In this document: positions 28,854 through 56,100 of the stretch, piece after piece | Layout: every line of letters starts with the position of its first letter | Position numbering within the stretch: the first letter of the stretch is position 1 | Source of the DNA: Bolinopsis microptera | Lineage: Eukaryota > Ctenophora > Tentaculata > Lobata > Bolinopsidae | Direction of reading: 5' to 3' | DNA length: 64,000 nt | NCBI RefSeq assembly: GCF_026151205.1 | Contig: NC_087077.1 | Span: forward strand, 19,341,975-19,405,974 | Notes under the pieces: model-generated | The model's database searches: none | The model's input: only the letters and a program-made list of their open reading frames with translations | What the model was told of the DNA's origin: nothing | Translations under genes and position numbers: made by a program

Positions 28854-31093
28854 GCTACTAGTAGGTAGTATGTAAGTGGTGAACAGTCTAAGTGTGTGGT
28901 TGGTTTGATTCAGAAGTCTGATCGGGACACTCTTTCACAGAGCACTTCAGATCTAGTCAAGCCCGATATTCCGTATGGTTACCCATTACTGAAAATTCAC
29001 AAGCTGACTGAGACTGAAATTAGAGAGAAAAAGATTCCACCCAGTCGATTCGTGACTGATCTCTCTAGAGGAGTAACTGCAAGATCAGATAAGTTTGTTG
29101 TTTGGAAGTGGTTGGGACCTCTTGCCAGGGATTACTGTATAGATCTTGTTAAAGATTCAACTGCAGCTCTCATAAAACTCGAGGAATTGGCAGCTTCCGG
29201 ACAAGTAGTCGATACTTGGATCAGCTTCAGTATTGATATTGTTTCTCTATACGATTCTCTGCAACATAGCTTGGTGATGTCAGCCTTAGATGATGCTATG
29301 GAGTCGTGTAGACCAGATTGGTCTGAGGAGTTCAGGACTTGGCTGAAGGGACTGATACAGCTTAGTTTTGATTCGGCAGTCTTGAAGAATGCAGACAACT
29401 GGTATGAGGTCGTTAACGGTGTACCCACTGGAGGTATCAATTCAGTGGATTGCGGTAACATTGCTTTGTTCTTTGTCCTAAAGAGTCTGGTTTACGACCC
29501 GGTTGTTAGACCAGAGGAGCTCAAGAACCTTGATCGGTTTGTGGATGATATTTCGGGCCAAGGTATGTGGAGAGGTTCTATGATTGGTTTTGAAGAATGG
29601 GTAGGGTCATTACGCAGTAAGATGGTTGATAACTATGGCTTAGATATTACATACGAAGTGAAACCAATCACGGAGTTCACTCAGTTCCTGGACATTCAGT
29701 ACAAGTTTGTTGGAGGGAGACTCACAACAGATCTGTTTAGGAAACCTACTGACGCCAACAGGTATCTAGAATTCTCAAGTTTCCATCCACGACATACCTT
29801 CCGGAGTATAGTCTTCTCACAGGCACTTCGATACAGAAGGATAATCAATGATGACGTCTTGCTGGATGAGAGATTGGCAGAGCTTCAGTTGTTTTTTGAA
29901 CGGTCTTCATATCCTACTGATATGGTGAGAGAGGTCATCAGTGATGTCAGATCGATACCAAGAACTTTACAGTACAAGGCAAAGGATCAGGGTCCCCCTT
30001 CTTTCACACCATGGATTGTTACATTCGGTGCGGGCTATGAGGAAACCAAGGAAAAGGCTAAAGAGGCCAGTAACATCATCTCAAGTAGCCGTACATGGAG
30101 CAGTGAGAACCCTGAGAGGATCCCTAAACTCCAAGTGGTGACCAGGCGAGCCCCTAACTTAAAGGACACTTTATTCAAGAGAAAGAAGCTTGCCTTAGGT
30201 TCAGAGTCAAGAACAACTGACCCATGCACCAAACCTGGCGAGAAGAAGAAAGGCAGACCCTGCCAAACTTGTCACCTTGTTAGTGGCAATTCCATGGTCT
30301 CCAATAATGGACACTCAGTCAGAACTCAAGGTGGTAACTGTAAGACACGCAACATTGTGTACGGCGCGACATGCAAACTTTGTACTGTTAATAACGTATA
30401 CGTGGGAAAAACAGTCACCAGCCTCAGCCAACGTGTGAATGGTCATCGCAGTAAATATTATGAGATTTTAGAGGCGAGTAGTAAGGGGAATGTTGAGAGC
30501 CATAGAGTTTTTGATGACGAGAATGTTTTAGGGGCACATCTTTTTTCAGTTCATAATTTGAGGGAGAGATCTGTTTTCAATGAAAGTTTCCATTTTGATA
30601 TTTTGTGTTCTACATCCCCAGATAATATTAGAAAGTCAGAACAGTTTTATATTAACAAATTGAAGACACTTTATCCGTTTGGCCTGAACAATGTGAATTC
30701 CGTTTCTGGAAGCTAATTTTTCATGGTGTCCCGAATTTTATTTTTAAATCGTCCATTTTTTGTTTATATATGCAGTCTATCAATTTTTGAATTGCGTCTT
30801 TTTGATTTAATGAACTACTGCAGACTCCACATTATTATAGTATATGCGATTAATTTTGTTCCGATTTTAAACTATTCCATTTTTACGAGATGCTAAATTA
30901 ATTTTTTGAGACTTTACTACATTTTTGATGAGAATTTTTGACATTTTCAAACTAACCATTGATATTCTCAGATTATGTGACTGATTAAATGCTGAAGATA
31001 AAAGAAATATATTCATTTTGCTAAGATTATGTTTGCGTTTCATTGCTCAACAGCTGTTCGAAGGATCAAATATAAGAAGAGCTACTAGTAGGT
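28854..31093 (+). mobile_element. Penelope-like element, 5'-truncated, nested in the foldback TIR
   Basis: The insert at 28867-31080 is flanked by identical 13-bp copies of GCTACTAGTAGGT (28854-28866 and 31081-31093), and the flanks rejoin to a continuous TIR sequence. It carries one ORF (RT + GIY-YIG) and a 360-bp AT-rich 3' region. The 5' part of the RT is missing, as expected for an incomplete target-primed insertion. Confidence 0.88.
28869..30716 (+). pseudogene. Penelope-like RT with C-terminal GIY-YIG endonuclease, N-terminally truncated
   Basis: About 610 codons open from directly after the insertion junction, with no initiating ATG at the start. RT motifs in order: YGYPLLKIHKL, RFVTDLSRG, SFSIDIVSLYDSL, NGVPTGGINS, the catalytic RFVDDISG, then FLDIQYKF and TDLFRKPTDANRYLEFSSFH, a signature of Penelope-like RTs. 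A Cys-rich linker (GRPCQTCHL, then GATCKLC) leads to the GIY-YIG nuclease: NVYVGKT, the catalytic Arg in LSQRVNGHRS and the Glu in KSEQFYINKL. The enzyme copies element RNA at nicked DNA; the GIY-YIG domain makes the nick. The first ~200 residues of the family are missing at the 5' junction; otherwise no stop or frameshift is seen. It needs an outside promoter and start to be expressed. Confidence 0.88.
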
Positions 31094-33674: not shown

Positions 33675-36600
33675 ATGGTGAGATTTGAAGATGAGGATGA
33701 TGCACCCCTGTTAGGGAGGGTAATACCAAACCCTGGCATCTTGAAAATGAAGAAGATCAGACTCTGGATAGCGGTTATTATTGTGGTTACTGTGGTCGGG
33801 GCTTTGTTCTTGGTAACCAGTACGAAGATTCATAATCAGAGCAGGGCGTACATGATCGGCCAGTACAGAGTTAAAGACACTAAGGTACAGTTTAATATAT
33901 AAGAATTATTATTGGCCGCAACTGCAAGATTACCACGGCTAGAATTGTTTTGTTAAATTTTTGTAGAGACTTTGTTAAGGGTTAGACTTACAAATGCTAC
34001 ATTTTACAGCATTATATTTCCAATATTGAATACTTTTCGGATATTTCCACATTTATTTTTCATCTGGATTCAAGATATGGCCATTATCCAAGCTGTAATT
34101 CAACTTGAATACTTCAGAAATCCACAAGTACTGATACTGATTACTGATAAACGATTAATGCCATTATTTTTTTTGATTAAGTCGATCATAAACATTTGAA
34201 CTGGGATTCCGAGCATAAGATTGAATTTTAAACTGAAATTACAGGATGAGGACAAACCTCTGGATAACGAGGGAAATCAGGTTATGGCCGAGTTGAATAC
34301 TTAAGAAATTGTTTAATAGACAGTTTATACCATTTTTATTAAAAATCAAGTCGATCGCAAACATTTGAAATGGGACCGTGAGTATAAGATTATAACGTTA
34401 ACTTAAATTGCAGGTTGAAGATAGACCTTTGTATAGCGAAGGAGGATTCAACGACTTTGTTGGGATTAACGAGACGGACCCACACGGTCCCAAACTGATA
34501 GGAGTCAAGCATGTGTCGAAGAGCAAAAACGAGGGGAAGAGTTCGGACGACGACTTTTTGCTGTTTGAAGCCACTGTTGAGATCTTGGACAACAAGATGC
34601 ACTACAGGTCGGTAATGGATTGCTGTTATTTTAATTTGAAAGACAGTCCGTGAACACGAATGGACATACCGTTTAAACTTTAAAAGGCTCATTTTGTTCT
34701 AAAAATGAAATGGCATAATATCTTTGTATAAGTTCTGGTAGTGGTAGTTAGGTCAAACACGGTCGTAATTCTTTCTAGCGTCTAGATCTATACAAATTAA
34801 TTGAACATTTTGACCTCTAACTTATAACTAATTCAATCGTCTAATATATCGTCCATAAGATACAGTAAACCCAAATAGATCTTCGAAAAACTCAATTTAG
34901 AGGCCTAAAAATGATTGATGTTCATTAGGTAATTAGTTTTTAGCTTTTAATATTTCAGGAAGGCCAGTAATGGTTGGGTTCCTAAACTAAACGTGATTAG
35001 TTTTTAGCTTTTAATATTTCAGGGAGGCCAGTAATGGTTGGGTTCCTGAACTAAACGTGATTAGTTTTTAGCTTTTAATATTTCAGGGAGGCCAGTAATG
35101 GTTGGGTTCCTAAACTAAACGTAATAAGTTTTTAGCTTTTAATATTTCAGGGAGGCCAGTAATGGTTGGGTTCCTAAACTAAACGTAATTAGTTTTTAGC
35201 TTTTAATATTTCAGGGAGGCCAGTAATGGTTGGGTTCCTAAACTAAACGTGATTAGTTTTTAGCTTTTAATATTTCAGGGAGGCCAGTAATGGTTGGGTT
35301 CCTAAACTAAACGTGATTAGTTTTTAGCTTTTAATATTTCAGGGACGCAAGCTGTAATGGTTGGGTTCCTAAACTAAACGTGATTAGTTTTTAGCTTTTA
35401 ATATTTCAGGGAGGCTAGTAATGGTTGGGTTCCTAAACTAAACGTGATTAGTTTTTAGCTTTTAATATTTCAGGGAGGCCAGTAATGGTTGGGTTCCTAA
35501 ACTAAACGTGATTAGTTTTTAGCTTTTAATATTTCAGGGAGGCTAGTAATGGTTGGGTTCCTAAACTAAACGTGATTAGTTTTTAGCTTTTAATATTTCA
35601 GGAAGGCTAGTAATGGTTGGGTTCCTAAACTAAACGTGATTAGTTTTTAGCTTTTAATATTTCAGGGAGGCTAGTAATGGTTGGGTTCCTAAACTAAACG
35701 TGATTAGTTTTTAGCTTTTAATATTTCAGGGAGGCCAGTAATGGTTGGGTTCCTAAACTAAACGTGATTAGTTTTTAGCTCTTAATATTTCAGGGAGGCC
35801 AGTAATGGTTGGGTTCCTAAACTAAACGTGATTAGTTTTTAGCTCTTAATATTTCAGGGAGGCCAGTAATGGTTGGGTTCCTAAACTAAACGTGATTAGT
35901 TTTTAGCTTTTAATATTTCAGGGAGGCCAGCTGTAATGGTTGGGTTCCTAAACTAAACGTGATTAGTTTTTAGCTTTTAATATTTCAGGGAGGCGAGTAA
36001 TGGTTGGGTTCCTAAACTAAACGTAATTAGTTTTTAGCTTTTAATATTTCAGGGAGGCCAGTAATGGTTGGGTTCCTAAACTAAACGTGATTAGTTTTTA
36101 GCTTTTAATATTTCAGGGAGGCCAGCTGTAATGGTTGGGTTCCTAAACTAAACGTGATTAGTTTTTAGCTTTTAATATTTCAGGGAGGCCAGCTGTAATG
36201 GTTGGGTTCCTAAACTAAACGTGATTAGTTTTTAGCTTTTAATATTTCAGGGAGGCTAGTAATGGTTGGGTTCCTAAACTAAACGTGATTAGTTTTTAGC
36301 TTTTAATATTTCAGGGAGGCCAGTAATGGTTGGGTTCCTAAACTAAACGTGATTAGTTTTTAGCTCTTAATATTTCAGGGAGGCCAGTAATGGTTGGGTT
36401 CCTAAACTAAACGTGATTAGTTTTTAGCTCTTAATATTTCAGGGAGGCCAGTAATGGTTGGGTTCCTAAACTAAACGTGATTAGTTTTTAGCTTTTAATA
36501 TTTCAGGGAGGCCAGCTGTAATGGTTGGGTTCCTAAACTAAACGTGATTAGTTTTTAGCTTTTAATATTTCAGGGAGGCCAGTAATGGTTGGGTTCCTAA

Positions 36601-39600
36601 ACTAAACGTGATTAGTTTTTAGCTTTTAATATTTCAGGGAGGCCAGTAATGGTTGGGTTCCTAAACTAAACGTGATTAGTTTTTAGCTTTTAATATTTCA
36701 GGGAGGCCAGTAATGGTTGGGTTCCTAAACTAAACGTGATTAGTTTTTAGCTTTTAATATTTCAGGGAGGCCAGTAATGGTTGGGTTCCTAAACTAAACG
36801 TGATTAGTTTTTAGCTTTTAATATTTCAGGGAGGCGAGTAATGGTTGGGTGCCTAAACTAAACGTGATTAGTTTTTAGCTTTTAATATGTCAGGGAGGCT
36901 AGTAATGGTTGGGTTCCTAAACTAAACGTGATTAGTTTTTAGCTTTTAATATTTCAGGGAGGCCAGTAATGGTTGGGTTCCTAAACTAAACGTGATTAGT
37001 TTTTAGCTCTTAATATTTCAGGGAGGCCAGTAATGGTTGGGTTCCTAAACTAAACGTGATTAGTTTTTAGCTTTTAATATTTCAGGGAGGCCAGCTGTAA
37101 TGGTTGGGTTCATAAACTAAACGTGATTAGTTTTTAGCTTTTAATATTTCAGGGAGGCCAGTAATGGTTGGGTTCCTAAACTAAACGTGATTAGTTTTTA
37201 GCTTTTAATATTTCAGGGAGGCCAGTAATGGTTGGGTTCCTGAACTAAACGTGATTAGTTTTTAGCTTTTAATATTTCAGGGAGGCCAGTAATGGGTGGG
37301 TTCCTAAACTAAACGTGATTAGTTTTTAGCTTTTAATATTTCAGGGAGGCTAGTAATGGTTGGGTTCCTAAACTAAACGTGATTAGTTTTTAGCTTTTAA
37401 TATTTCAGGGAGGCCAGTAATGGTTGGGTTCCTAAACTAAACGTGATTAGTTTTTAGCTCTTAATATTTCAGGGAGGCCAGTAATGGTTGGGTTCCTAAA
37501 CTAAACGTGATTAGTTTTTAGCTTTTAATATTTCAGGGAGGCCAGCTGTAATGGTTGGGTTCCTAAACTAAACGTGATTAGTTTTTAGCTTTTAATATTT
37601 CAGGGAGGCCAGTAATGGTTGGGTTCCTAAACTAAACGTGATTAGTTTTTAGCTCTTAATATTTCAGGGAGGCCAGTAATGGTTGGGTTCCTAAACTAAA
37701 CGTGATTAGTTTTTAGCTTTTAATATTTCAGGGAGGCCAGCTGTAATGGTTGGGTTCCTAAACTAAACGTGATTAGTTTTTAGCTTTTAATATTTCAGGG
37801 AGGCCAGCTGTAATGGTTGGGTTCCTAAACTAAACGTGATTAGTTTTTAGCTTTTAATATTTCAGGGAGGCTAGTAATGGTTGGGTTCCTAAACTAAACG
37901 TGATTAGTTTTTAGCTTTTAATATTTCAGGGAGGCCAGTAATGGTTGGGTTCCTAAACTAAACGTGATTAGTTTTTAGCTCTTAATATTTCAGGGAGGCC
38001 AGTAATGGTTGGGTTCCTAAACTAAACGTGATTAGTTTTTAGCTCTTAATATTTCAGGGAGGCCAGTAATGGTTGGGTTCCTAAACTAAACGTGATTAGT
38101 TTTTAGCTTTTAATATTTCAGGGAGGCCAGCTGTAATGGTTGGGTTCCTAAACTAAACGTGATTAGTTTTTAGCTTTTAATATTTCAGGGAGGCCAGTAA
38201 TGGTTGGGTTCCTAAACTAAACGTGATTAGTTTTTAGCTTTTAATATTTCAGGGAGGCCAGTAATGGTTGGGTTCCTAAACTAAACGTGATTAGTTTTTA
38301 GCTTTTAATATTTCAGGGAGGCCAGTAATGGTTGGGTTCCTAAACTAAACGTGATTAGTTTTTAGCTTTTAATATTTCAGGGAGGCCAGTAATGGTTGGG
38401 TTCCTAAACTAAACGTGATTAGTTTTTAGCTTTTAATATTTCAGGGAGGCGAGTAATGGTTGGGTTCCTAAACTAAACGTGATTAGTTTTTAGCTTTTAA
38501 TATTTCAGGGAGGCTAGTAATGGTTGGGTTCCTAAACTAAACGTGATTAGTTTTTAGCTTTTAATATTTCAGGGAGGCCAGTAATGGTTGGGTTCCTAAA
38601 CTAAACGTGATTAGTTTTTAGCTCTTAATATTTCAGGGAGGCCAGTAATGGTTGGGTTCCTAAACTAAACGTGATTAGTTTTTAGCTTTTAATATTTCAG
38701 GGAGGCCAGCTGTAATGGTTGGGTTCCTAAACTAAACGTGATTAGTTTTTAGCTTTTAATATTTCAGGGAGGCCAGTAATGGTTGGGTTCCTAAACTAAA
38801 CGTGATTAGTTTTTAGCTTTTAATATTTCAGGGAGGCCAGTAATGGTTGGGTTCCTGAACTAAACGTGATTAGTTTTTAGCTTTTAATATTTCAGGGAGG
38901 CCAGTAATGGTTGGGTTCCTAAACTAAACGTGATTAGTTTTTAGCTTTTAATATTTCAGGGAGGCTAGTAATGGTTGGGTTCCTAAACTAAACGTGATTA
39001 GTTTTTAGCTTTTAATATTTCAGGGAGGCCAGTAATGGTTGGGTTCCTAAACTAAACGTGATTAGTTTTTAGCTCTTAATATTTCAGGGAGGCCAGTAAT
39101 GGTTGGGTTCCTAAACTAAACGTGATTAGTTTTTAGCTTTTAATATTTCAGGGAGGCCAGCTGTAATGGTTGGGTTCCTAAACTAAACGTGATTAGTTTT
39201 TAGCTTTTAATATTTCAGGGAGGCCAGTAATGGTTGGGTTCCTAAACTAAACGTGATTAGTTTTTAGCTTTTAATATTTCAGGGAGGCCAGTAATGGTTG
39301 GGTTCCTGGACTAAACGTGATTAGTTTTTAGCTTTTAATATTTCAGGGAGGCCAGCTGTAATGGTTGGGTTCCTAAACTAAACGTGATTAGTTTTTAGCT
39401 TTTAATATTTCAGGGAGGCCAGTAATGGTTGGGTTCCTAAACTAAACGTGATTAGTTTTTAGCTTTTAATATTTCAGGGAGGCCAGTAATGGTTGGGTTC
39501 CTGAACTAAACGTGATTAGTTTTTAGCTTTTAATATTTCAGGGAGGCCAGTAATGGTTGGGTTCCTAAACTAAACGTGATTAGTTTTTAGCTTTTAATAT

Positions 39601-42600
39601 TTCAGGGAGGCCAGTAATGGTTGGGTTCCTAAACTAAACGTGATTAGTTTTTAGCTTTTAATATTTCAGGGAGGCCAGTAATGGTTGGGTTCCTAAACTA
39701 AACGTGATTAGTTTTTAGCTTTTAATATTTCAGGGAGGCCAGTAATGGTTGGGTTCCTAAACTAAACGTGATTAGTTTTTAAACTTTTAATATTTCAGGG
39801 AGGCCAGTAATGGTTGGGTTCCTAAACTAAACGTGATTAGTTTTTAGCTTTTAATATTTCAGGGAGGCCAGTAATGGTTGGGTTCCTAAACTAAACGTGA
39901 TTAGTTTTTATCTTTTAATATTTCAGGGAGGCCAGTAATGGTTGGGTTCCTAAACTAAACGTGATTAGTTTTTAGCTTTTAATATTTCAGGGAGGCCAGT
40001 AATGGTTGGGTTCCTAAACTAAACGTGATTAGTTTTTAGCTTTTAATATTTCAGGGAGGCCAGTAATGGTTGGGTTCCTAAACTAAACGTGATATTGTTC
40101 CACGGGGAACACTTCACATCAGCCATATGGAACGATATAGGAACTCTAGAGGACCTGGCTAGTAGTGGGTACAGAGTGGTAGCTCTGGAGCTGCCGGGTC
40201 ATGGACTCTCATCTCTGGATCCTAAGTTGAGACCTGCTGAGTTTATAAAACTATTCATTCAGGTCAGCATTGTCTCTTGTATAAAGATATCTTGCTTTTA
40301 GAATTGTACATTTCAAGCTTAAATATAAATAGTTTCCACGCCACTAAACACTGCCGCTGCTAACTTTGAATATTCCGCCGCCGATTTTGTAAAAACCCCC
40401 GGTATCTGTTATTACTAAAATCATGATGTAAACCTTTGTTACGTTTGAAAACAGATTACCACACCACGTCTATGACAGACATTCGAGGTTAGTATCCATG
40501 ACCATAACACACGTGCTCACTGCTCAGTAGAAAGTTCATTAATTTGTCAAGTTCTAGTCTTTCCAGATTAATAGATATGGGGATGAAATTAGGGTCTCAC
40601 TCACTGTAACACAAAATAGGCATGTAGCCGAAACGTGGACAATCTATTGCATGTATTTTGTTTTACAGTGAGTGGAGACTATCATTTCGTACCCAGCAGT
40701 CTATCATGATCGACTCACTCATGATGCAGAGCAAAAATCGAAACATACTTTCAAGATTAAACAGAATATTACCGCTAAAACATGATGACGACTAAACATA
40801 TTCATACGACCAAATTTTTCACGGACATTGTGAAAATGTGTGGTGATTTTTTAATAAGTGGTTTACCCTTTTTCTGAACTCTAGAATCGAAGTCATGGTG
40901 ATCATGGTGTTACTGTTATAACTTAAGTACTTAAACTTACTGTTATGTAAATTAAATACAGAGTGAATGTGACTGAGGAGTAATTATATTTGTCCTAGTA
41001 TACTAATGTCTAATAAGCTTATATAGTAATTGGCTACACACATACCTATTACCTACGCATGTGTAGGGACACACACACTAAAATTAATGGAAATAATTAC
41101 CGGACTTTATTATTCACGGACCTTATTGCCAAAGACATTATTTTCACGGACCAAATTATTCACGCTAAGGTCTTCAGCGTGAAAATAATGTCCGTGACAA
41201 TTATGTCCAATAAGGTATTTGGTTTCTCTACTTTCAAGATTTCGTTGAAATTGAAAAATGCAATACAAAAATATTTCGTATCAAAATCCAGCAATTTTAG
41301 CGCTGGTTATTAAAATATATGCTCCTTCAAAAATATATCAATATATTAATCAAATCACTTCTTACTTCCCTCCCTTCTATAATAACCCATGTTTACCAAA
41401 TGCTTCAAGGAAGTTGTCATGTCTCATCAGTCATGATGTTTCTGACATGACAAATTCAATGTCCGCAGCTAATAGCACGCCTCAAATTAATCAGTGCCAA
41501 GCACAACTTTAGAATACTGCCCCACCAAATCATGCCTTTACGTTAAAAACTAATTCTCGTATGATTGCCTAAAGAAATAGTACATATTAGCGATTGGTTA
41601 TTATATTTTGGAATCAGTCAGAAGTCATGTCATCGAGATGATCCTAATACATGGTAACTAATCTATATTATATCTCAAATTCTACATCCGGTACGGCTCT
41701 GCACACATGATATCTCTCTCTGCCATGAAACATGGCAAACCTTTTAAACCATGATTTAAAACCTAAACCTAAACCTAAACTTAAACTCAACTGGGCTCTC
41801 CTATGTCACCAAACTAGACCAATAACCAATTTTAGATAATTATATTTTTCTATATTTGTATAATAAGTAAATTGACGTAGTGGATGGTTGAGAGGGTTTC
41901 AAGCACAGGTCACTCTCAAATCCTAAAGATAAGCAGTGGCCTTCGGCACTTGAAACCTCTTCAAACCTCCCCTGATTTATTTATTATTGATATTGTTTGA
42001 TTGTGCCGTAAAAATAAATATTTGTTTTATTAAATAAATATTTGTTTTATTAATTCAAATGAATAATGTCACGATGACTCACGCCTCGGTGGTTCTCTCC
42101 AAAGTATGGGGATTTTGAAATCCCCACCATGATAAAAAATAAAAAATTTAGTTTTTGAACTCTCCATTGCCCTAAAATCGATCCCATCTCCGCCTGATTT
42201 CTCTTTCTTTTCTCTTTTTAAAGCCCCCTAATGTTGACATTGCAACCTATTGCAAGCCATTATATCTGATTTATAGAATTTAATGTTTACAGCTGAGAAA
42301 TATGTTTCCACAAATGCCGTTTAGTTTATGTTTCTACAGCCATATCAACTGCGCAGAGTCTGCGGCCCATCGATCCATGCTTGATGCTATTTATAATAGC
42401 CTGTAGATATATCCTCCTGGCTTCAGTCAGAGGACCATCCAATCCTAGATATATCACCTTATGTTCAGTGGTGTAACGTTGCATTAATATTTATAAAAAA
42501 TAGATTATCAATATGCAATTGAGCAATGTTTCTTCGAACACATGTACTACAAATCTCACAGTCACCATGTTACTTTTCTCAGCTCCCACTAACTATTCTA

Positions 42601-44482
42601 AGGGCTGAAAGGGATTTAATATAGTCTATACCATTTCAACTCTCAATGAAATTGCTCTTTTAATATTGTTCTCAAAATTAATGAAAGGCGTCGAATGGGA
42701 TTGGTGTATTCTTAATGAAGATCAATCTATAGTCAGTACAGTTTTGAGGACGGTCCCTTCATTGGGCATGAAGACTTGCAGCCGATCGAAAAACAGTTCA
42801 TGCTCATCAAGAATATTACATTTTGACTTCAAGTCGCTCACTACCAACAAATTTCCAGGGAGAGTTCTTGATATCTTAGTAAAAATAACATTGACACATC
42901 TTGTTTTAGAGTGCAAATGATTAACCTTCTTTTCTAGATGTTTCTTTATACTAATACTATTACTAATACCACTTGATTTAATTTCAGCACTTGGATCTGT
43001 ACCGACCTGGAGTGGTCCTCTTGAGTGCAGATAGTAGCAATACTGCCACTATGGAGTACCTCATACGATACAGCAAGCACAGTCCTCTTCTTAAAGGGTA
43101 AGTCTGAGCAAGTATATGTTAGTGCCATGACCAATGTCTATCATGGAAAATTGCAAGGTATCAAATTCTCGTGGTTTCATCACGTCATGTTAACTGTTAT
43201 AATACCTACCGGGAATTATATCCACTAAAATTCGTGGACACTGAGAGCTGATCATTTGCAAATATATCCCGCAAGGGAAGCGAAGGTATTATCAGCATAG
43301 ACTCAGACTGGCTGTTTATTTATGGATTTACAAGCAAGGTCAGACAGGATCAGCTTCAATGCTCTTTAAAAGTCAGACTTCTTCAGGTTAAGTTTCAATC
43401 ATCGGATCAGGTCAGGTTCTGAACCTGACCTGAAAGGATTTCATGAATATTCAAACATTAACAAGCCGATAACCGGGCCATAATTTAAATGCACTATCCA
43501 GTTGCTGGTGAATTTATTTGATAAAGTAAAGAAACTAAGGTGATGTTATAACGTTTGTTCTGAAGATGTAATATTTCAGGTACATCAACATAGATTCAGC
43601 AAACAATCAATACACAGATATGCAACGAATCACAGCGCAGACTATCAATGCTCAAGTTCTCTTTCTTTGTGGCGGAAAGTAAGTTGAACTTAAGTTATGA
43701 AATTAAGTTTAAAAATCTTAAATGCAGTCACTGTGCAAAGATTTTCGCATAAACTTTGTAAAAATGACCCCTGTTTAACAAAACCAGACTCTGCCTCATC
43801 ATAGAATTAAATAGATATCTGGCTTTGCTGTTTTGATGAAGATATAGCATTTAGAAGTTCTAAAATATTGACGTGATTGGATGATCGAATAGAATACCGC
43901 TAGACTCTGTGAATTGAAGAGCAGTAACCCTATCTTAGCTTTACCTTTGCACTATGACTTGCAGCTCGCATTTCCTTTTGACTGATGCAGGATTTATAGC
44001 ATAAAATTAAAAATAGATAAAAGCAAAAACTATATCAGCAAAGTTTTTGTCTATATTATCTTCTCTCCATAAAAGTGAACAGCTCTTTCACCAAACTGTT
44101 TATATCACTTGTATCGACATTTCACAGTCCCCATTAACAATCAACAATTCCCCAAACTGTATCCACTCTAACAGTCCACGATTCCCCAAGCAGTATTCAC
44201 ATTTCACACTAACAGTTCATTATTCCTGAATTCCTCAAACAGTATCTAGATCTAACCTACACTCCACTTTACTCCTCAAGCTGTATCAGGACTAACAGTC
44301 CATTACTCCGCAGGGATGCAGAGTGTTTGACAAGTTCCCACGACTGGTCACGCTACATCACCAGCTCCCGAGTACACTCCTTCTCTAACGCCTACAAGGA
44401 GTTCTATAACGAGGACCCTGTAGTTTTCAACACTGTCTTGAAGCGCTTCCTCGAGTACTTGTCCAAATCAAACGATTCGTGA
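33675..44482 (+). CDS. ABHD14-like alpha/beta-hydrolase, membrane-anchored (six coding exons)
   Basis: Exons: 33675-33884, 34414-34607, 40055-40262, 42988-43097, 43580-43678 and 44314-44482. All have AG/GT borders and join in one frame of 990 nt (329 residues); the stop is TGA at 44480. The ATG was chosen because it opens onto a cytosolic acidic stretch (EDEDDAPLLG), followed by a basic flank and one hydrophobic helix (about residues 30-48), a type-II anchor like that of ABHD14A. The hydrolase part starts at TVEILDNKMHYREA and continues VILFHGEHFTSAIW (oxyanion-loop HG), GYRVVALELPGHG and VLFLCGGKD. The order and spacing match ABHD14A/B. By my alignment the catalytic Asp (GGKD) is kept. The nucleophile position (SADSS) and the His position (SNAYKEF) are not canonical, so it may be a pseudoenzyme. 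Intron 2 holds the giant acceptor array. Confidence 0.9.
34245..34280 (+). CDS. Possible optional 12-codon exon of the ABHD14-like gene
   Basis: GATGAGGACAAACCTCTGGA and the following 16 bases sit between ATTACAG and GTTATG and read DEDKPLDNEGNQ in phase 0, so including them would keep the main frame. The segment is a diverged duplicate of the start of the next exon (VEDRPLYSEGGF) together with ~70 bp of the intron before it (34171-34280 against 34340-34449). The donor GTTATG is weak, so this may be a decayed duplicate rather than a used exon. Confidence 0.5.
34932..40090 (+). repeat. ~80-copy tandem array of splice acceptor + partial exon
   Basis: The 64-bp unit consists of intron 3' end (GATTAGTTTTTAGC, then TTTTAATATTTCAG) plus the first 37 bases of the ABHD14-like exon (GGAGGCCAGTAATGG, TTGGGTTCCTAAAC, TAAACGTG). 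The AG at 34957-34958 is the first and the AG at 40053-40054 the last and real one. The 5096 bp between them equal 79 x 64 plus 13 units with an extra 3 bp (CAGCTGTAATGG type) plus 1 base, hence 80 acceptors. A 25-unit block is duplicated with an exact offset of 1615 bp (36121 onward against 37736 onward). Only the last copy continues into the full exon. Confidence 0.95.
40263..42987 (+). other. Intron 3 of the ABHD14-like gene (2.7 kb)
   Basis: Bounded by CAG/GTCAGC and TTTCAG/CAC. It contains a hairpin (40594-40617 with 40655-40679), an imperfect inverted repeat at about 41122-41218 (TTCACGGACC / GTCCGTGA words), three telomere-like CCTAAA units at 41760-41780, and an L2/CR1-like 3' end near 41993-42060 (TTTGATTGTGCCGTAAAAAT). 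No other gene seen. Confidence 0.7.
40594..40679. repeat. Intronic hairpin element
   Basis: GTCTCACTCACTGTAACACA at the left pairs with TGTTTTACAGTGAGTGGAGA at the right, giving about 24-bp arms around a loop holding GCCGAAACGTGG. It may be a small MITE. Confidence 0.6.
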
Positions 44483-45114: not shown

Positions 45115-48100
45115 GACGAGGGTGTCAAGTTGTTTGGTATTGTTGAAGTAGGTGCTGGTAGTGGAAAGAAGTCCATGAGCTTTAAGAACAGGCGAAAGGA
45201 GGAGATTGACAGCCTGATTGAAAAGAGGAAGCAGTTGAGGAGGAAGAAAAGGAAGGCAAGGAGTGAGATAGAGAAGGATGGTTATGAGGCATTATTGAGA
45301 GTGTTGGCTGGTCGTTTGATGAAGTTGAGGAGGGCTGAGAAAAGGAGACAGAAGCAGAGAGAGATAAGGAGAGTTAGAGGGGATTTTGGACGCGACCCTT
45401 TCAAGACAGTCAAGGGAGTGCTAAATCCAAGTCCAGTGGGGGAGCTTAAGTGTTCAAAGGAGGAGCTAGATGATCACTTGGCCAGAACGTACGGAGATCC
45501 AGCCCGGCAGCAGCCCCTTGGTATACTTGAGGGTCTGCCTGAGTGTGCTCCTGAACCCTCTGTTGCCTTTGACCTCACAACGGTATCCAAGAAGGAGTTT
45601 GAGGAGGTTGTAAAGAAGGCAAGGAGCAAGAGTGCCCCGGGTAACAACGGGATCCCGTACACAGTGTACAAGAGATGTCCTGGTATTGCCAAGAATCTCT
45701 GGGACCTGTTGAGAACTGGATATAAGTTAGAAGAATATCCTGACAATTGTAGGTATTTCGAGGGTGTCTACATCCCAAAGGCGGATGGCGACTTTTCACC
45801 AAGTTCAGGACGGCCTATTTCCCTGGGTAACATTCAAGGGAAGATTTATTTGGCGATCCTGGCGAAGAGGTTGACCAGCTTTGTTGTCTCGAATGGATAT
45901 GTAGACCTCTCTATACAGAAGGGTGGTGTGCCAGGCGTCCGTGGGTGCACGGAGCATTTTGGTGCCATGTGGGAGGTACTGAAGGAAGCAAAGGTCAAGA
46001 AGAAGGATCTGAGTGTGGTATGGCTTGACCTGGCTAACGCTTACGGAGCGGTACCCCATGTTCTGATTGCCAGGGCCCTCCGTTTCTACAACGTCCCCGA
46101 GAAGGTTATCAACATTATCCTACGGTACTTCTCCGGGGTATTCGGAAGGTTCTCCTCAAGATCGGTGACATCAGACTGGCAGCAGTTTGAGATAGGAATC
46201 TTCATGGGGTGTGTGATATCAGTCATCTTGTTTGTCTTGTGCATGAACCTTGGGCATGAACACCTAAAGTCTAAGGTTCCGAGAAGCATTGAGTACATCA
46301 AGGATGACACACCGATACCAACTCTGAAGCTGTTTATGGACGATAGCTGTCTGACGACCGCACGTGCAGAGGATATGCAAACGTTACTCAATGTGTTTCA
46401 GAATGTATTGTTTTTTGTATATTAGAGCTTTAGCCACAGGTAGGTTGGTCTGCACGGAGCCCCACAGTTTCAATTCCTTGTTTAACTAGCCGTACAGCAA
46501 GGATATCCACTGTGCTCACCAGGTTAGGCACATAACCAACACTACCCTGCTAAAGTTAGCTATATACTATGGTTTTCTCGAAAGTATTTCCTTGTATTTG
46601 ACTTTCGTCAAGAAAGTACTCTTACTTTCGGTTCAGATGTTATATAAGCTAGCCTTTATGTGGTCCGCAGGGCGGAGGAACCGCCACACACTTCTCACCC
46701 AGCTACGAATACAATGTATTGTTTTTTGTATATTAGAGCTTTAGCCACAGGTAGGTTGGTCTGCACGGAGCCCCACAGTTTCAATTCCTTGTTTAACTAG
46801 CCGTACAGCAAGGATATCCACTGTGCTCACCAGGTTAGGCACATAACCAACACTACCCTGCTAAAGTTAGCTATATACTATGGTTTTCTCGAAAGTATTT
46901 CCTTGTATTTGACTTTCGTCAAGAAAGTACTCTTACTTTCGGTTCAGATGTTATATAAGCTAGCCTTTATGTGGTCCGCAGGGCGGAGGAACCGCCACAC
47001 ACTTCTCACCCAGCTACGAATACAATGTATTGTTTTTTGTATATTAGAGCTTTAGCCACAGGTAGGTTGGTCTGCACGGAGCCCCACAGTTTCAATTCCT
47101 TGTTTAACTAGCCGTACAGCAAGGATATCCACTGTGCTCACCAGGTTAGGCACATAACCAACACTACCCTGCTAAAGTTAGCTATATACTATGGTTTTCT
47201 CGAAAGTATTTCCTTGTATTTGACTTTCGTCAAGAAAGTACTCTTACTTTCGGTTCAGATGTTATATAAGCTAGCCTTTATGTGGTCCGCAGGGCGGAGG
47301 AACCGCCACACACTTCTCACCCAGCTACGAATACAATGTATTGTTTTTTGTATATTAGAGCTTTAGCCACAGGTAGGTTGGTCTGCACGGAGCCCCACAG
47401 TTTCAATTCCTTGTTTAACTAGCCGTACAGCAAGGATATCCACTGTGCTCACCAGGTTAGGCACATAACCAACACTACCCTGCTAAAGTTAGCTATATAC
47501 TATGGTTTTCTCGAAAGTATTTCCTTGTATTTGACTTTCGTCAAGAAAGTACTCTTACTTTCGGTTCAGATGTTATATAAGCTAGCCTTTATGTGGTCCG
47601 CAGTACGTGGACTGGTCCAGATTTAAGTTAAAGTCCTCCAAGTCCAGAGCACTGGTGCTGAAGAAGGGAGTGGCTGTGAGGTGGGTTGAGGAGGTAGTGG
47701 GAGGAGAGGAGGAGGTGGAGAGAGAAGAGTTGTGTTTGCAGTTGGGTGGTGAGGTGATTCCGAATGTGTCAGAGAAGCCGATAAAATTCCTTGGGAGATG
47801 GATAAGAGTGGAAGGAAATGACAAATCAGTCATCGACTCAACCAAGGTCGACCTTAACACTTTTCTTCGGAGACTCGATGAAAGTTCCCTTACTGGACTC
47901 CAGAAGTGCTGGGGATATCAGTACATGGTCCTTCCAAAACTGAAGTGGCCTCTTGCCATCTATGATATTCCGATCACAACAGTTACCAGATGGGAACAGA
48001 ATACCAATAGTTTCCTCAGGAAGTGGTTAGGGGTGGGGCACACTCTGAGTGGTCTTTGTCTGTTCAGTCAATCATCCAGTGTGGCCTTACCGGTGAGCAG

Positions 48101-50100: not shown

Positions 50101-53100
50101 TCTCTTACTCTGTTATTCCTGACGTAGTAGAGAAAGGGGTTGAGAGTGGAGTTAATGAAAGGCATTACAACGTAGAGGGATGAAGCTACTACTCCCCCTG
50201 TTGGACTCCAGCTACCTGTAGTACTACGGGATTATTGAAGAGATTAAAGTTACATGGCACCTGCTGTGCTATATGTTGTACAAAACACAAGTAAATATTG
50301 TAATATTCTGTTTATAACAGTAAGTGTAAGGATTAGAGAGGAAGACCAAGGCAAACTTACTGACAATAGCAGACTCTGATAGAACATTCAGTGTCTTTAA
50401 GAAGCCTACGATTCCCATGAACCACCAGAATATATAGCAGGAAGTAAAGGCTACAGCAAGGAATATCATAGTAACTGCTGCTGTCTGGAAATTATATAAT
50501 TAAACAATTTATTACAAACATGTCCAATCATAATGAATTGGACATGTTTGGGTAGTATTACTGTTGGGCAGTATTTCTCCCATAGCTAATACAGTGTCTA
50601 ATTAAGCTAATTAAGCTAATTAAGCTAATTAAGCTAATTAAGCTAATTAAGCTAATTAAGCTAATTAAGCTAATTAAGCTAATTAAGCTAATTAAGCAAA
50701 TTAAGCTAATTAAGCTAATTAAGGTAATTAAGCTAATTATAACCTGCTTCTCCATCTGCCTCTTCTTCAGCACATTTGTCCTCTTTTGCGAGGAGGAGGA
50801 GCCTCGCGAGAGGTCGTTTAGCTGGATCTTGTTGGCGATTATCTTGTTGGCGAGTAGCAACTTGAAGGTAACCGCAGCACAACATGATACTAGGATAATA
50901 GCTGGCAGGATGACCGGGCAGATGTACAGGAGGAAGTACATGGGAGATATCCACGAGGTACTTTTCTCGAACACTACCTGCGTTATATTTCATTAACTTC
51001 ACCAACAATGATTGCTTTGTTCTAATTTTGCTTCCTTGAGTAATACCTGAATTTCATTAATTAACTTCCTCGAACGATAACTTTTTCCATTTAGTTAACT
51101 CCCTCAGACAATTCCCAATAATCATACTATATATAAAGCGAGACGATATATATATATATATATAATATGTATTAAACGGATTATGTATACAGTATTTGAC
51201 CAAAACCCATAATCATGGGTAGAGTGTACCGCTGCCAGTGTCTCTCTTTTCCAAACAAAAGGAAATGATATTAATTTGAGGAACAGTCCGCTAATGCAAA
51301 TTGATACCGAGAATGAAATCGGTCGCTCGCTTTTTCAAATCAATAAGCTTTATTACAATTCGTAAGCCGTGATCGAATGGAAAAAGCGAGCGACCGATTT
51401 CATTCTCGGTATCAATTTGCATTAGCGGACTGTTCCTCAAATTAATATCATTTCCTTTTGTTTGGAAAAGAGAGACACTGGCAGCGGTACACTCTACCCA
51501 TGATTATGGGTTTTGGTCAAATATCATCTCTTTTTGATTATAATGTCAGGATAATTTACACAGCTAGTCGAAACTTCATTAACAAGGAGGTAATTTCGAC
51601 GATTTCGAAATTCTGCCTTTGAAAACGTTTCCTTGTGTTTAGTTAGGTATTTCTGTCGATAACCGACTGAATATGGCACTTTTTACTCATTCAAGTTGGC
51701 ATTAAATTCGTATATAATGCCATTTAAATATCGTGGAAAGCAGAATATATTCGAAATCACGAATGAGCAAATTTCTCACCTTTCGCACGTGCAAACTTTG
51801 AGCGGACGTCGCGTGCGCATACAATATTGAATCACCGTAAATTTTTGCATTGTGGTATTTAATATATAGTTTGATAAGCATGCAAAGTTTCAGAAGATTT
51901 CAAAAAGAACTTGGATCACAACGGGACTCCAAAGTTGATAAAAATCGTGAAAATCAAAATTTTTAGCGATTTTAGCTATTTTAAATGAATTTGGGCGTGT
52001 CCCCACGTGTGCAACTTTTCGATTTTTAACTTTAAAACTAGCCTATAACACAATTTACACCTTTAAGAAGCAAAATTGAGCTCCACAACCCAAGGGATGG
52101 CCCAACACCAGAGAATACTAATTCACAACTTTTGTGTTTTTATAAAATTATTCTTCAAAAAAGCACTAACTTCAATAGCAAATATCTTTATGAAGGAGCA
52201 AGGTAGGAAACTATTCCGGTAGATTTTCGGAATGCTTGAACAATTATCTAAGATGAAAATGTCTTCAGATTTTGAATAAAATTACTCCTTAATAGTGTAA
52301 AATCGATTTAAAAAGTTGTTACTTTGTCAAAAGTCAAGTTTTAAAAACACTTAACTTGATGACGTCATCAAGTGATGATGATGACGTTAAATTATTTTTC
52401 AATACAATGTAAACTAAAGCTTAAACAATTATCTTTAAAACCTGTGGTTCGAGATGACTGTATCGTTTATACTTTTGAATCTACGGACACTTAAATGTAG
52501 GCTACAATTGATTGCAAAAAGCGTCTATACATATATACATATATATATACATATATATCTACACGACAATCTGTTGTAAAACAGGGGTTCGAGAAAACCC
52601 ACTTCCCGATACTCCTGAAACATGAAATTTTTTTTACAGTCGATTTGGACAAGGTCTAGACGCCCTGCAAAGTTTCAGATCTCTAACTCAATTTTAACAT
52701 GGTTTTTAAGGCACCTGAATATGGCGATTTTGGGTTTTTTACCTAATTTCGTATAACATGCTGGCGCGTATTTTGCGCAGATTTCTTAAAAACCTCCATA
52801 TAACTATTTCTTATTCCTGTCATCTTCAACATTGAATTAGAATGTTTTGAACTTAAATGTACCTGCTGAACTACTTTCGATGAGTCTTAATGCCTGGAAA
52901 ACAATAAAGGGGATATAATCGTATAGGGGGTAAATAGTGTTGTGAATATAAGGGCGACGGTAATGCTTGCCAGCATTGTGATATATATTATATAATACAT
53001 ATATATATATCCGTACCATTTTACTGACACCACGGCATCAACTTTAACACGACTTTCCGCATAAAACGTAAAAGATATACAACTTGAACTTTTTTGGCTG

Positions 53101-56100
53101 GTTCAAATGAATTATTGGCCTTCAAATCAGCATCGGAGTTTTCTACTTTTGAGAAAATCTAATGTTGTTTATTCATTGTGTAAATTTGTATGTAATTGAT
53201 CGATTTGAAAGATTTCAATAAAAAAGCATGAAAAAATAAAAAATTGGCCAAGGAATAAGAATTTGAATGCCCAAAATTTGAACCCCAGTGGTATCAAAAA
53301 CGCGAATTAAATAGTTATTTTAATATATTGAGTCTTGACACCACTTTAGGGTTAGACGGGTTCCTGCTTGTCTAATTAAGTCATATGATTATTATTTCAA
53401 GAAAATTTCTGATTTTTCTGAATAGAATCATATCAATGAAGACAATGTTCTTCATAAGAACATTTTTATCACTGAGCCTATTCAGAAAAAATCAGACATT
53501 TTCTTGAAAGAATCCTCAGACAGTAGTGATACCTCCGAATCTAAAATTAACTTCATCGATCAATAGCTTTTATCTAGTATTTAACGATTTCATTGTCTAG
53601 TCATTGCAGATGAAATTATTTAAATAATGATATGCTCAACCTCCTGTTGTCGCGAGAAATTGAATACAAATTAAATTCAGGTTTTTACGTTAAAATACTG
53701 AAGGTGAAGGTGAAGGTGAAGGTGAAGGTGAAGGTGAAGGTGAAGGTAAAGGTGAATGTGAAGGTGAAGGTGAAGGTGAAGGTGAAGGTGAAGGTGAAGG
53801 TGAAGGTGAAGGTGAAGGTGAAGGTGAAGGTGAAGGTGAAGGTGAAGGTGAAGGTGAAGGTGAAGGTGAAGGTGAAGGTGAAGGTGAAGGTGAAGGTGAA
53901 GGTGAAGGTGAAGGTGAAGGTGAAGGTGAAGGTGAAGGTGAAGGTGAAGGTGAAGGTGAAGGTGAAGGTGAAGGTGAAGGTGAAGGTGAAGGTGAAGGTG
54001 AAGGTGAAGGTGAAGGTGAAGGTGAAGGTGAAGGTGAAGGTGAAGGTGAAGGTGAAGGTGAAGGTGAAGGTGAAGGTGAAGGTGAAGGTGAAGGTGAAGG
54101 TGAAGGTGAAGGTGAAGGTGAAGGTGAAGGTGAAGGTGAAGGTGAAGGTGAAGGTGAAGGTGAAGGTGAAGGTGAAGGTGAAGGTGAAGGTGAAGGTGAA
54201 GGTGAAGGTGAAGGTGAAGGTGAAGGTGAAGGTGAAGGTGAAGGTGAAGGTGAAGGTGAAGGTGAAGGTGAAGGTGAAGGTGAAGGTGAAGGTGAAGGTG
54301 AAGGTGAAGGTGAAGGTGAAGGTGAAGGTGAAGGTGAAGGTGAAGGTGAAGGTGAAGGTGAAGCTTACCGGAATTTGCCAGACGCACATCCTAAACTGAG
54401 AAGAGTAGGTGTAAAGATGGCCCGTCATGAAGGGAACACATGAAATGAGAATGGAGACAGTCCACGCCAACACTACGTATAACTTAACAATCTTCACCAC
54501 CCCTGATCGCTTATACCTGTCAAATCTGAATCATAATTTTCTGTGTAAACAGTATCAGGTGTTCAAGTGGTCAATTGAATCTAATTTTTCATTTTTTTGG
54601 CGACGTATGGTCACCTTATAAACAGGAAACGTTTGCTGTTGGCATTTTTGCCGTTTAACAATCGACCAAATCCACAATTTTACCGCCTACTTTGAAGTTT
54701 GAATGTATCTAAATGAATCGCTTAATGTCTCAAAATTTAAGAATTGTCTGGCGAACAAAAATGTTTTAGCCGTTCAACCTCTCACTGTTTTAACTGCTCT
54801 TGATAAATAAAAGATATTATCAGAGTTTAAATATGACGTTCTACTAAATGGTTAGTGGGTTGTCAGAGGTAAGCATCCTCCGGGTCTAGACTTCAATAAA
54901 CTTAATCATCTTCCAAGCAATCAGTATGTTGTCAACTGGAACTCTATTTTGCCGTCTCGTGGCTCATTATCTTAACTTCCGGCACAGCAGGCTATCTAGA
55001 CAATTCACTGTCATTTCAGGAATAATTCTTCATCAAGCTACCATATAACATCAAATCTTGATATATAACATCAAATAAAGTGGTCATCTAAGTACAGAGG
55101 TCATCTAAAATCTAAATGGTCAATAAAGCGGTTATCTAATCACGGATGGTCGGATACTCATAAATAAGTAGTTATTTGGTTCGCCGCTCATAAATTGAAA
55201 ATGATTCATTGCCCAAATTTGTTCAATAAAACCTGATAGTGATACTAAATTTAGTATTTCAAGAGCTCTTTGACTTTGAGTTTGATCACTGACAATTTAA
55301 ATTAAACCTGGTTTTGAGACAGAAACTTACCTGGTGTGCAAAACGAGCACAACTAATATAGTCTGGTAATCAATGTTTCAAAGCGCTCCTATTTGAAAGA
55401 ATTTATGTCACACTTGCCCTCCACGATAAACATATTACCCACTGAATACAACTGTGTTGAAAAAATTCTCGATTCTTCAGAAAAATATCAGATCAATAAC
55501 GAACCTGAAGGGCTTGTAAACCGCGAGCCATCTGTCCATACCAATCCCAGCGACTATGAAGAGAGTACATCTGGACAACACGTTGAACTGGAAACCTATC
55601 ACATTGCAAATAACCCTGTAATTAATATTAAATCATTTTTATAAGAGAATATCCTAATTATAATATGATCGTATATGCTCTTCAATACCAATATCATTAT
55701 CAATCTAGATTCTAGCTGTAGAATTGAATCCAGTGCATATCTGTATGTAGAGTGTGGCTTTATAATTAATAATATGGAGACTTGACCCAACATATAATTA
55801 ATAATTATCTTCCATTTCATGTTTATGTGTAACGCTTACTTCCAACCATAGGATGGAATTAAAAATGACCCCTGCACGAAAATCTTTCTGTTAAAAATAA
55901 AAATTCGCAAACTTTTTTGTCAAGTCGTCATCATTGTTAACGTAGAGATTTTTGTTTAGAAAACCGGCCATTACAAACGTCATGGTTATCACTGTCATCG
56001 TGAAGTCACAACTCTGAAATTACAATCAAATATCTAATCTTTTAATTTTGATTGTACCCCAAAAATCCATATTATTATATAAGAAAAGAAAATGTAATCA

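Follow-up and report, generated by a model that had tools for sequence, protein, structure and literature searches.

An 80-unit tandem array spanning a 3′ splice site in an ABHD14-like gene of the ctenophore Bolinopsis microptera

Choice among equal 3′ splice sites has mostly been studied with few engineered or natural alternative sites. IFI6 (6-16, G1P3) reportedly contains a minisatellite that provides multiple splice donor sites, as the title of Turri, Cuin and Porter (1995) has it, and its repeat is said to be a 12-bp unit in about 26 copies with in-frame products. Here we describe an array of acceptors rather than donors. It lies in the window, a 64,000-nucleotide stretch of the Bolinopsis microptera genome (assembly GCF_026151205.1, NC_087077.1, positions 19,341,975 to 19,405,974, forward strand), where 80 tandem units each join the end of intron 2 of an ABHD14-like gene to the start of its exon 3. 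The locus is a rare natural test of choice among equal splice sites: its 80 near-identical acceptors differ mainly in position, all but one close the reading frame, and each choice gives a distinct RNA. Candidate rules for acceptor choice are the first site transcribed, the site nearest the upstream donor, and the site nearest the downstream donor.

What we say of published systems is limited to the parts of each source covered here. In the potato RdRp gene, an intron was gained by tandem duplication across an intron–exon boundary (Ma, Lan and Niu 2016, PMC4974935). There, as in our array, the duplicated segment joins the last part of an intron to the first part of the exon behind it (27 + 37 nt in the array), and the potato segment carries a putative branch site, a polypyrimidine tract and an acceptor (PMC4974935). 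The potato gene has two copies whereas the array has 80. In potato, moreover, an exonic donor was activated and a new intron is spliced, with copies kept in the mRNA, whereas the database protein of the ABHD14-like gene (P0001, possibly from an array-free allele) has a single copy and no such intron, and the products of this type that we tested are closed in frame. In IFI6, two downstream repeat units serve as splice donors and give rise to three mRNA species (PMC4526556); the 1995 report is cited in PMC2572611 and PMC4526556. Minisatellite units supply splice sites in both genes, but those of IFI6 are donors, and ours are acceptors in a 64-bp unit whose alternative products all end at a stop. 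The intronic variable number tandem repeat (VNTR) of ABCA7 is likewise an intronic tandem repeat, with a length that tracks splicing and lower expression (De Roeck et al. 2018, PMC5954066), but it is tied to exon skipping and its abstract mentions neither an exon part nor a genuine splice site in the unit. Gomafu/MIAT also carries tandem copies of a splicing signal in RNA, which compete for a splicing factor in vitro (PMC3116199). In that case the repeat is the branch-site motif alone in a noncoding RNA, and the parts covered describe no acceptor array. Among the matches listed in our literature search (titles and abstract starts of PMC papers under Creative Commons licence, a set that covers earlier studies of duplicated splice sites poorly), none described a splice-acceptor array. 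The first-pass annotation of this DNA had held that no such array was known, and as to size this stands; in kind, the two-copy potato RdRp duplication and the IFI6 donor minisatellite preceded it. We regard the array as an acceptor-side, high-copy, frame-closing splice-site minisatellite, a new form beside these two.

The array and its host gene

The ABHD14-like gene spans 10.8 kb in six exons, and its introns 1 to 5 are all GT...AG. Exons were placed by tblastn of P0001 and model translation, together with hydropathy for exon 1, a structure match for exon 3 and the sequence for exons 4 to 6; the array was delimited with Tandem Repeats Finder (TRF) and split into units at the acceptor. Positions are those of the window, and a slash marks a splice boundary.

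33675..33884, + strand: exon 1, coding part, with the start codon and an N-terminal hydrophobic segment LWIAVIIVVTVVGALFLVT; donor AAG/GTACAG
34414..34607, + strand: exon 2; its donor CAG/GTCGGT leads into the array-bearing intron
34608..40054, + strand: intron 2 of the gene model with the last acceptor, 5,447 nt (351 nt with the first acceptor)
34932..40093, + strand: tandem array of 80 units
34959..34959, + strand: first exon base after acceptor 1 of 80, from the unit alignment
40055..40262, + strand: exon 3 after the 80th acceptor, 208 nt, encoding R-EASNGWVPKLNVILFHGEHF..FIQ; donor CAG/GTCAGC
42988..43097, + strand: exon 4
43580..43678, + strand: exon 5
44314..44482, + strand: exon 6, including the stop codon

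Over 34932-40093, TRF reported a period of 64 and 80.0 copies with 97% matches; the score of 9656 was the highest among 54 rows, and the only tie was this array itself read at 451 bp. Splitting at the acceptor gave 80 head-to-tail units with 79 spacings (65 of 64 bp, 13 of 67 bp and one of 65 bp), in agreement with the 64/67-bp unit, repeated about 80 times and ending in a real ABHD14-like exon, that the first-pass annotation had described. These values (64 bp, 80 copies, 97%) are those of a minisatellite, that is, of head-to-tail units of ~10-100 bp at high identity. When cut at its natural boundary, the unit consists of ATTAGTTTTTAGCTTTTAATATTTCAG (27 nt of the end of intron 2, ATTAG..TTTCAG) and then GGAGGCCAGTAATGGTTGGGTTCCTAAACTAAACGTG (37 nt of the start of exon 3, GGAGGCC..AACGTG); units of the 67-bp type hold 40 nt of exon, owing to an insertion of 3 nt there that leaves the frame intact. 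Each unit does carry an acceptor, as had been claimed: a plausible splice site is present at the exon boundary of every unit, with the AG intact in 80 of 80, the exact acceptor 14-mer TTTTAATATTTCAG in 68 and an exact CTAAACTAAAC in 74. A chance origin of this pattern is out of the question. A search of the unit against the 264.65-Mb source assembly listed at least 80 matches, all inside the array. An exact 29-mer of the unit had no match in prokaryotic and viral contig collections (from which the source genome's own records are possibly omitted), as expected for a gene of animal type. The predicted protein P0003 seemingly begins at the GTG that closes the unit, and its contig (199,101 b) probably represents genomic DNA, either from this species or from a close one.

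Evidence on the spliced product comes from the protein database. Searches with exons 1-3 and with P0001 each returned four matches, namely P0001, P0002 and two fragments, the fragments being different ones in the second search. P0001 (329 aa) has 14 member sequences on 3 contigs, the longest of 1,670 b. The translation of our six-exon model is also 329 aa long and is identical to P0001 at 327/329 residues, the differences being V47/I and A276/T (window/P0001). Because contigs of at most 1,670 b stand against a gene of 10.8 kb, they must be spliced RNA, and the splice from exon 2 to 40055 thus occurs in this or a very close species. The exons first proposed, 34414-34607 and 40055-40262, agree with P0001, and the last-acceptor product is the sole product observed from the array sites, though possibly from an allele without the array. 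P0002 (332 aa), which judging by its divergence would come from another species, is 76% identical over 94% and has the exon-3 start unchanged. By this comparison the ABHD14-like gene is conserved, and the shared exon-3 start indicates that the gene gave rise to the unit and not the reverse. We found no second locus for exons 2-3 in the source assembly at E ≤ 0.1 (67 matches, all at the array locus).

Reading frame and acceptor choice

We determined the reading frame behind each acceptor in the full six-exon model. Used singly, 77 of the 79 upstream acceptors lead to a TAG right after V-I-S-F; one of the remaining two meets a TAA at that place, and the other (acceptor 77) a TAA further on. For acceptor 79 the stop falls ~225 nt before the exon-3 donor. 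An open product is obtained from 1 of the 80 acceptors, number 80, so that the earlier claim of full-length protein from the last site only is upheld, and the TAG that it had placed four codons after the 37-base segment is correct for all but those two units. The lone ATG of the consensus unit lies in another frame and gives M-V-G-F-L-N-stop (by eye); a protein start inside the array was rejected, P0001 starting in exon 1.

The array is probably a minisatellite that arose by duplication over a 3′ splice site, with 79 passive decoys and the last acceptor chosen by exon definition. In this account, 64 bp lying across the intron-2 acceptor would have been duplicated in tandem, and unequal exchange or slippage would have raised the copy number to 80, one of the steps being duplication of a block of 25 units and 1,615 bp. 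The upstream 79 acceptors would then act as passive decoys, and the exon-3 donor, 208 nt beyond the last acceptor, would mostly be paired with that acceptor by the spliceosome. We infer both this history and the preference for the last acceptor in carriers of the array. The local context is near-identical among units; the first differs in what precedes it (the exon-2 donor, 351 nt away), and the last differs downstream, where exon 3 and its donor 208 nt off follow. Because the last copy is distinguished only downstream, a preference for it should come from that side, through exon definition or exonic enhancers, and it would be favoured as the only acceptor with the remainder of the real exon directly behind it. 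Given the conservation of the gene (P0002) and the presence of its product in the database, the simplest reading is that the last acceptor is strongly preferred; the alternative would be that long alleles lose expression. In a published transcript database, splice sites of large flanking introns were preferentially picked by proximity across the exon (PMC9225289).

Several points weigh on the other side. The same study found an upstream lean of 3′ splice sites in both event groups that it examined. Between sites of similar strength in the large-intron class this strong upstream lean is significantly reduced, with no reversal stated in the parts covered (PMC9225289). P0001 differs from the window at 2 residues and may derive from an allele or species free of the array. 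Finally, an exon starting at acceptor 79 would be only 272 nt long, and exon definition alone should for that reason not be absolute. Selection of the 3′-most site, one of the two routes offered by the first-pass annotation, gives the best fit to the observed product and is putative for an array-bearing allele.

The uniform early stop could alternatively make the array a copy-number dimmer, as the first-pass annotation had also suggested. With all acceptors in competition, RNA spliced to an upstream one would contain a stop and be destroyed, and productive output would drop as copies rise. All 79 of 79 upstream choices do bring an early stop. Equal competition would leave 1/80 of the RNA productive (1.25%), and a first-come model with assumed rates would leave 0.008-1.1%. 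There is also a precedent in the ABCA7 VNTR, whose length is inverse to expression and closely tracks exon skipping (PMC5954066). Against this, no protein ending in V-I-S-F is among the 4 database matches, a weak point in that clustering at 90% may hide one, and the copies are without sign of constraint. In the exonic part, third codon positions account for five of nine substituted alignment columns, against an expected 13/37 (p = 0.17); in the intronic part ~5 events spare the AG, an outcome with a chance probability of 0.68. These tests of third positions and of AG sparing, weak because the events are few, gave no signal of selection on the unit copies, and selection preserving the acceptors was rejected as unsupported on the same figures. 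We consider the dimmer unlikely. A heritable rheostat, in which 79 equal decoys divert most pre-mRNA and the fast-mutating length of the array sets the output of the gene, seems to us slightly less likely still. If it were true that copy number sets expression, the locus would show with unusual clarity how a tandem repeat can tune a gene by way of splicing.

We also considered splicing in several steps, in which units would serve as 34/37-nt mini-exons or as ratchet points and the intron would be removed piecewise. All 80 units have a GT directly after the exon segment (AAC/GTGATT in 76), and recruitment of a donor from duplicated exon sequence is known in potato RdRp (PMC4974935). Yet the introns between adjacent units would be just 30 nt, and the pseudo-donor is without G at -1 and +5, in contrast to the donor consensus. 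The exon start is GG in 78 units and GA in 2, giving AG/GT in none of the 80; splicing to a unit thus regenerates no donor, and ratchet recursive splicing, the other route that had been offered for the array, is rejected on sequence. Mini-exon chains fail on frame. Of 3,160 products in which a single mini-exon is joined to any of the acceptors after it, none was open (the longest reached 151 aa); with two mini-exons before acceptor 80, none of 3,081 was open, and with three, none of 3,000 sampled, while the product of acceptor 80 alone, our positive control, was open. P0001, moreover, has no inserted residues. We judge removal in several steps to be extremely unlikely.

Finally, the array RNA could act as a splicing-factor sponge or kinetic brake, holding SF1, U2AF or U2 and slowing this or other introns. 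It contains 80 acceptors and 74 exact CUAAACUAAAC stretches, and the tandem UACUAAC repeats of Gomafu bind SF1 and, of two substrates spliced in vitro, slowed only the one whose branch point is weak (PMC3116199). However, CUAAAC differs from UACUAAC, and the array lies within an intron that should normally be removed. The fold of the array RNA is likewise unremarkable: the last five units, the only ones folded, fold no better than shuffles (z = -0.79), and we thus have no sign in them of a structured RNA. A sponge is in our view very unlikely.

How the array arose

We next describe the arrangement of units along the array and a second duplication in the same gene.

35895..37509, + strand: higher-order block 1, 25 units, 1,615 bp, with 7 differences of 1,615 to block 2 and no indel
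37510..39124, + strand: higher-order block 2, 25 units, 1,615 bp, from comparison with block 1
34147..34274, + strand: upstream copy of an older duplication over the exon-2 acceptor, from repeat comparison, with the decoy TTACAG/GATGAG (first base 34245)

In the alignment we distinguish 20 types of unit (those of units 75 and 76 reflect one boundary-shifting change), which stand in largely irregular order along the array. Compared with itself, this order repeats best at 25 units, where 26/55 positions are equal, and a third copy of the block begins at 39125, with 3 differences in its first 262 bases, and falls out of register after four units. The two near-identical 1,615-bp blocks would be a mark of multi-unit unequal exchange, and the 7 differences between them suggest recent change. 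The array begins as ..ATTAGGTA followed by ATTAG.. on the left and ends with ..AACGTG followed by ATATTG.. on the right, and these ends could be compatible with tandem duplication through a 2-bp (AT) microhomology. The last unit is identical to the consensus, as it should be if the copies descend from the real exon.

Repeats are difficult to assemble, and an assembly or haplotype artefact would mean that the real array is much shorter or absent. That the two blocks are 99.6% identical is consistent with such an error. Opposed to it are the ~20 unit types in their largely irregular order and the long arrays found elsewhere in the same assembly (for example, 53 bp x 67 copies). With 20 unit types and 7 differences between the 1,615-bp blocks, the array is not a simple re-use of identical reads, and we regard an artefact as quite improbable.

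To place the array in its genome, we sampled twenty 10-kb stretches elsewhere in the assembly, at round coordinates on contigs C1-C10 (2,797 N). Tandem repeats make up 36,466 of these 200,000 bases (18.2%), and 22.5% of the window. At a period of at least 20, a span of at least 500 and at least 90% matches, the sample holds 8 distinct arrays, two of them with only ~2 copies; the one with most copies has a 53-bp unit in 67 copies at 96% and extends past the end of its 10-kb stretch. No array as long at such identity was found in the sample, whose stretches are only 10 kb each. Taking ~8 arrays in every 200 kb and assuming 100,000 acceptors, at which ~2% of random 64-bp duplications would span one, we would expect acceptor-spanning arrays genome-wide to number on the order of a hundred or more before selection, a figure that is calculated and not counted. 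The array is probably an accident of a repeat-rich genome, and the evolutionary event was probably ordinary, since about one fifth of the genome is tandem repeat and some arrays should straddle exon boundaries.

An older duplication in the gene has the same geometry. Positions 34147-34274 recur, with 72% identity and 169 bp further on, at 34316-34443, and the repeat crosses the exon-2 acceptor; P0001 uses the downstream copy and not the decoy. There are thus two acceptor-spanning duplications in one gene, and the observed product uses the 3′-most acceptor in both. Judged by eye, the upstream copy could give rise to an in-frame mini-exon of 36 nt at 34245-34280, DEDKPLDNEGNQ, with the donor CAG/GTTATG; neither P0001 nor P0002 contains it.

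The encoded protein and other repeats

The end of exon 2 and exon 3 encode HYREASNGWVPKLNVILFHGEHFTS.. and match 1imj (CCG1-interacting factor B), which we take to be human ABHD14B, with E = 5.1e-10; over residues 122-321 the match has E = 1.1e-12. This homology extends over the hydrolase domain and places the product in the ABHD14 (CIB) alpha/beta hydrolase family. Pfam Abhydrolase_6 scored 26.0 bits, just under its cut-off of 26.3, and all 6 NCBIfam matches were far under their own cut-offs. The catalytic triad of ABHD14B is presumably Ser111, Asp162 and His188. In a pairwise alignment to 1imj, the Ser111 position is Asp and the His188 position Lys, with the Asp retained; the residue after the Ser111 position is Ser in P0001 and Ala in P0002, and an alignment shift of one residue could matter to this comparison. 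Read by eye, P0002 has the same residues as P0001 at the nucleophile and His positions. The protein may be non-catalytic. Its N-terminal hydrophobic segment (peak Kyte-Doolittle 19-mer mean of 2.83, starting at residue 30) suggests a predicted membrane anchor.

Other repeats in the window also lie in or beside reading frames. At 46402-47603, a reverse-transcriptase-like frame (..LLNVFQ before and YVDWSRFKLK.. after, by eye) is broken by a 311-bp unit in 3.9 perfect tandem copies; the last copy ends in ggtccgcag/TACGTGG, which is acceptor-like, and the array may sit as or in an intron. On the - strand, a 9-bp repeat of 15.8 copies (50598-50739) comes just after the donor-like CAG/GTTATA in a frame that by eye resembles a G-protein-coupled receptor, and a very pure 6-bp array of 111 copies (53699-54363) lies beside a frame of the same resemblance, again by eye. 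Another very pure 6-bp array, of 160 copies (20874-21834), lies within a region that by eye resembles a reverse transcriptase of the non-LTR (long terminal repeat) type. At 28869-30716, a frame resembles, by eye only, a Penelope-like retroelement with a reverse transcriptase and a GIY-YIG-like end.

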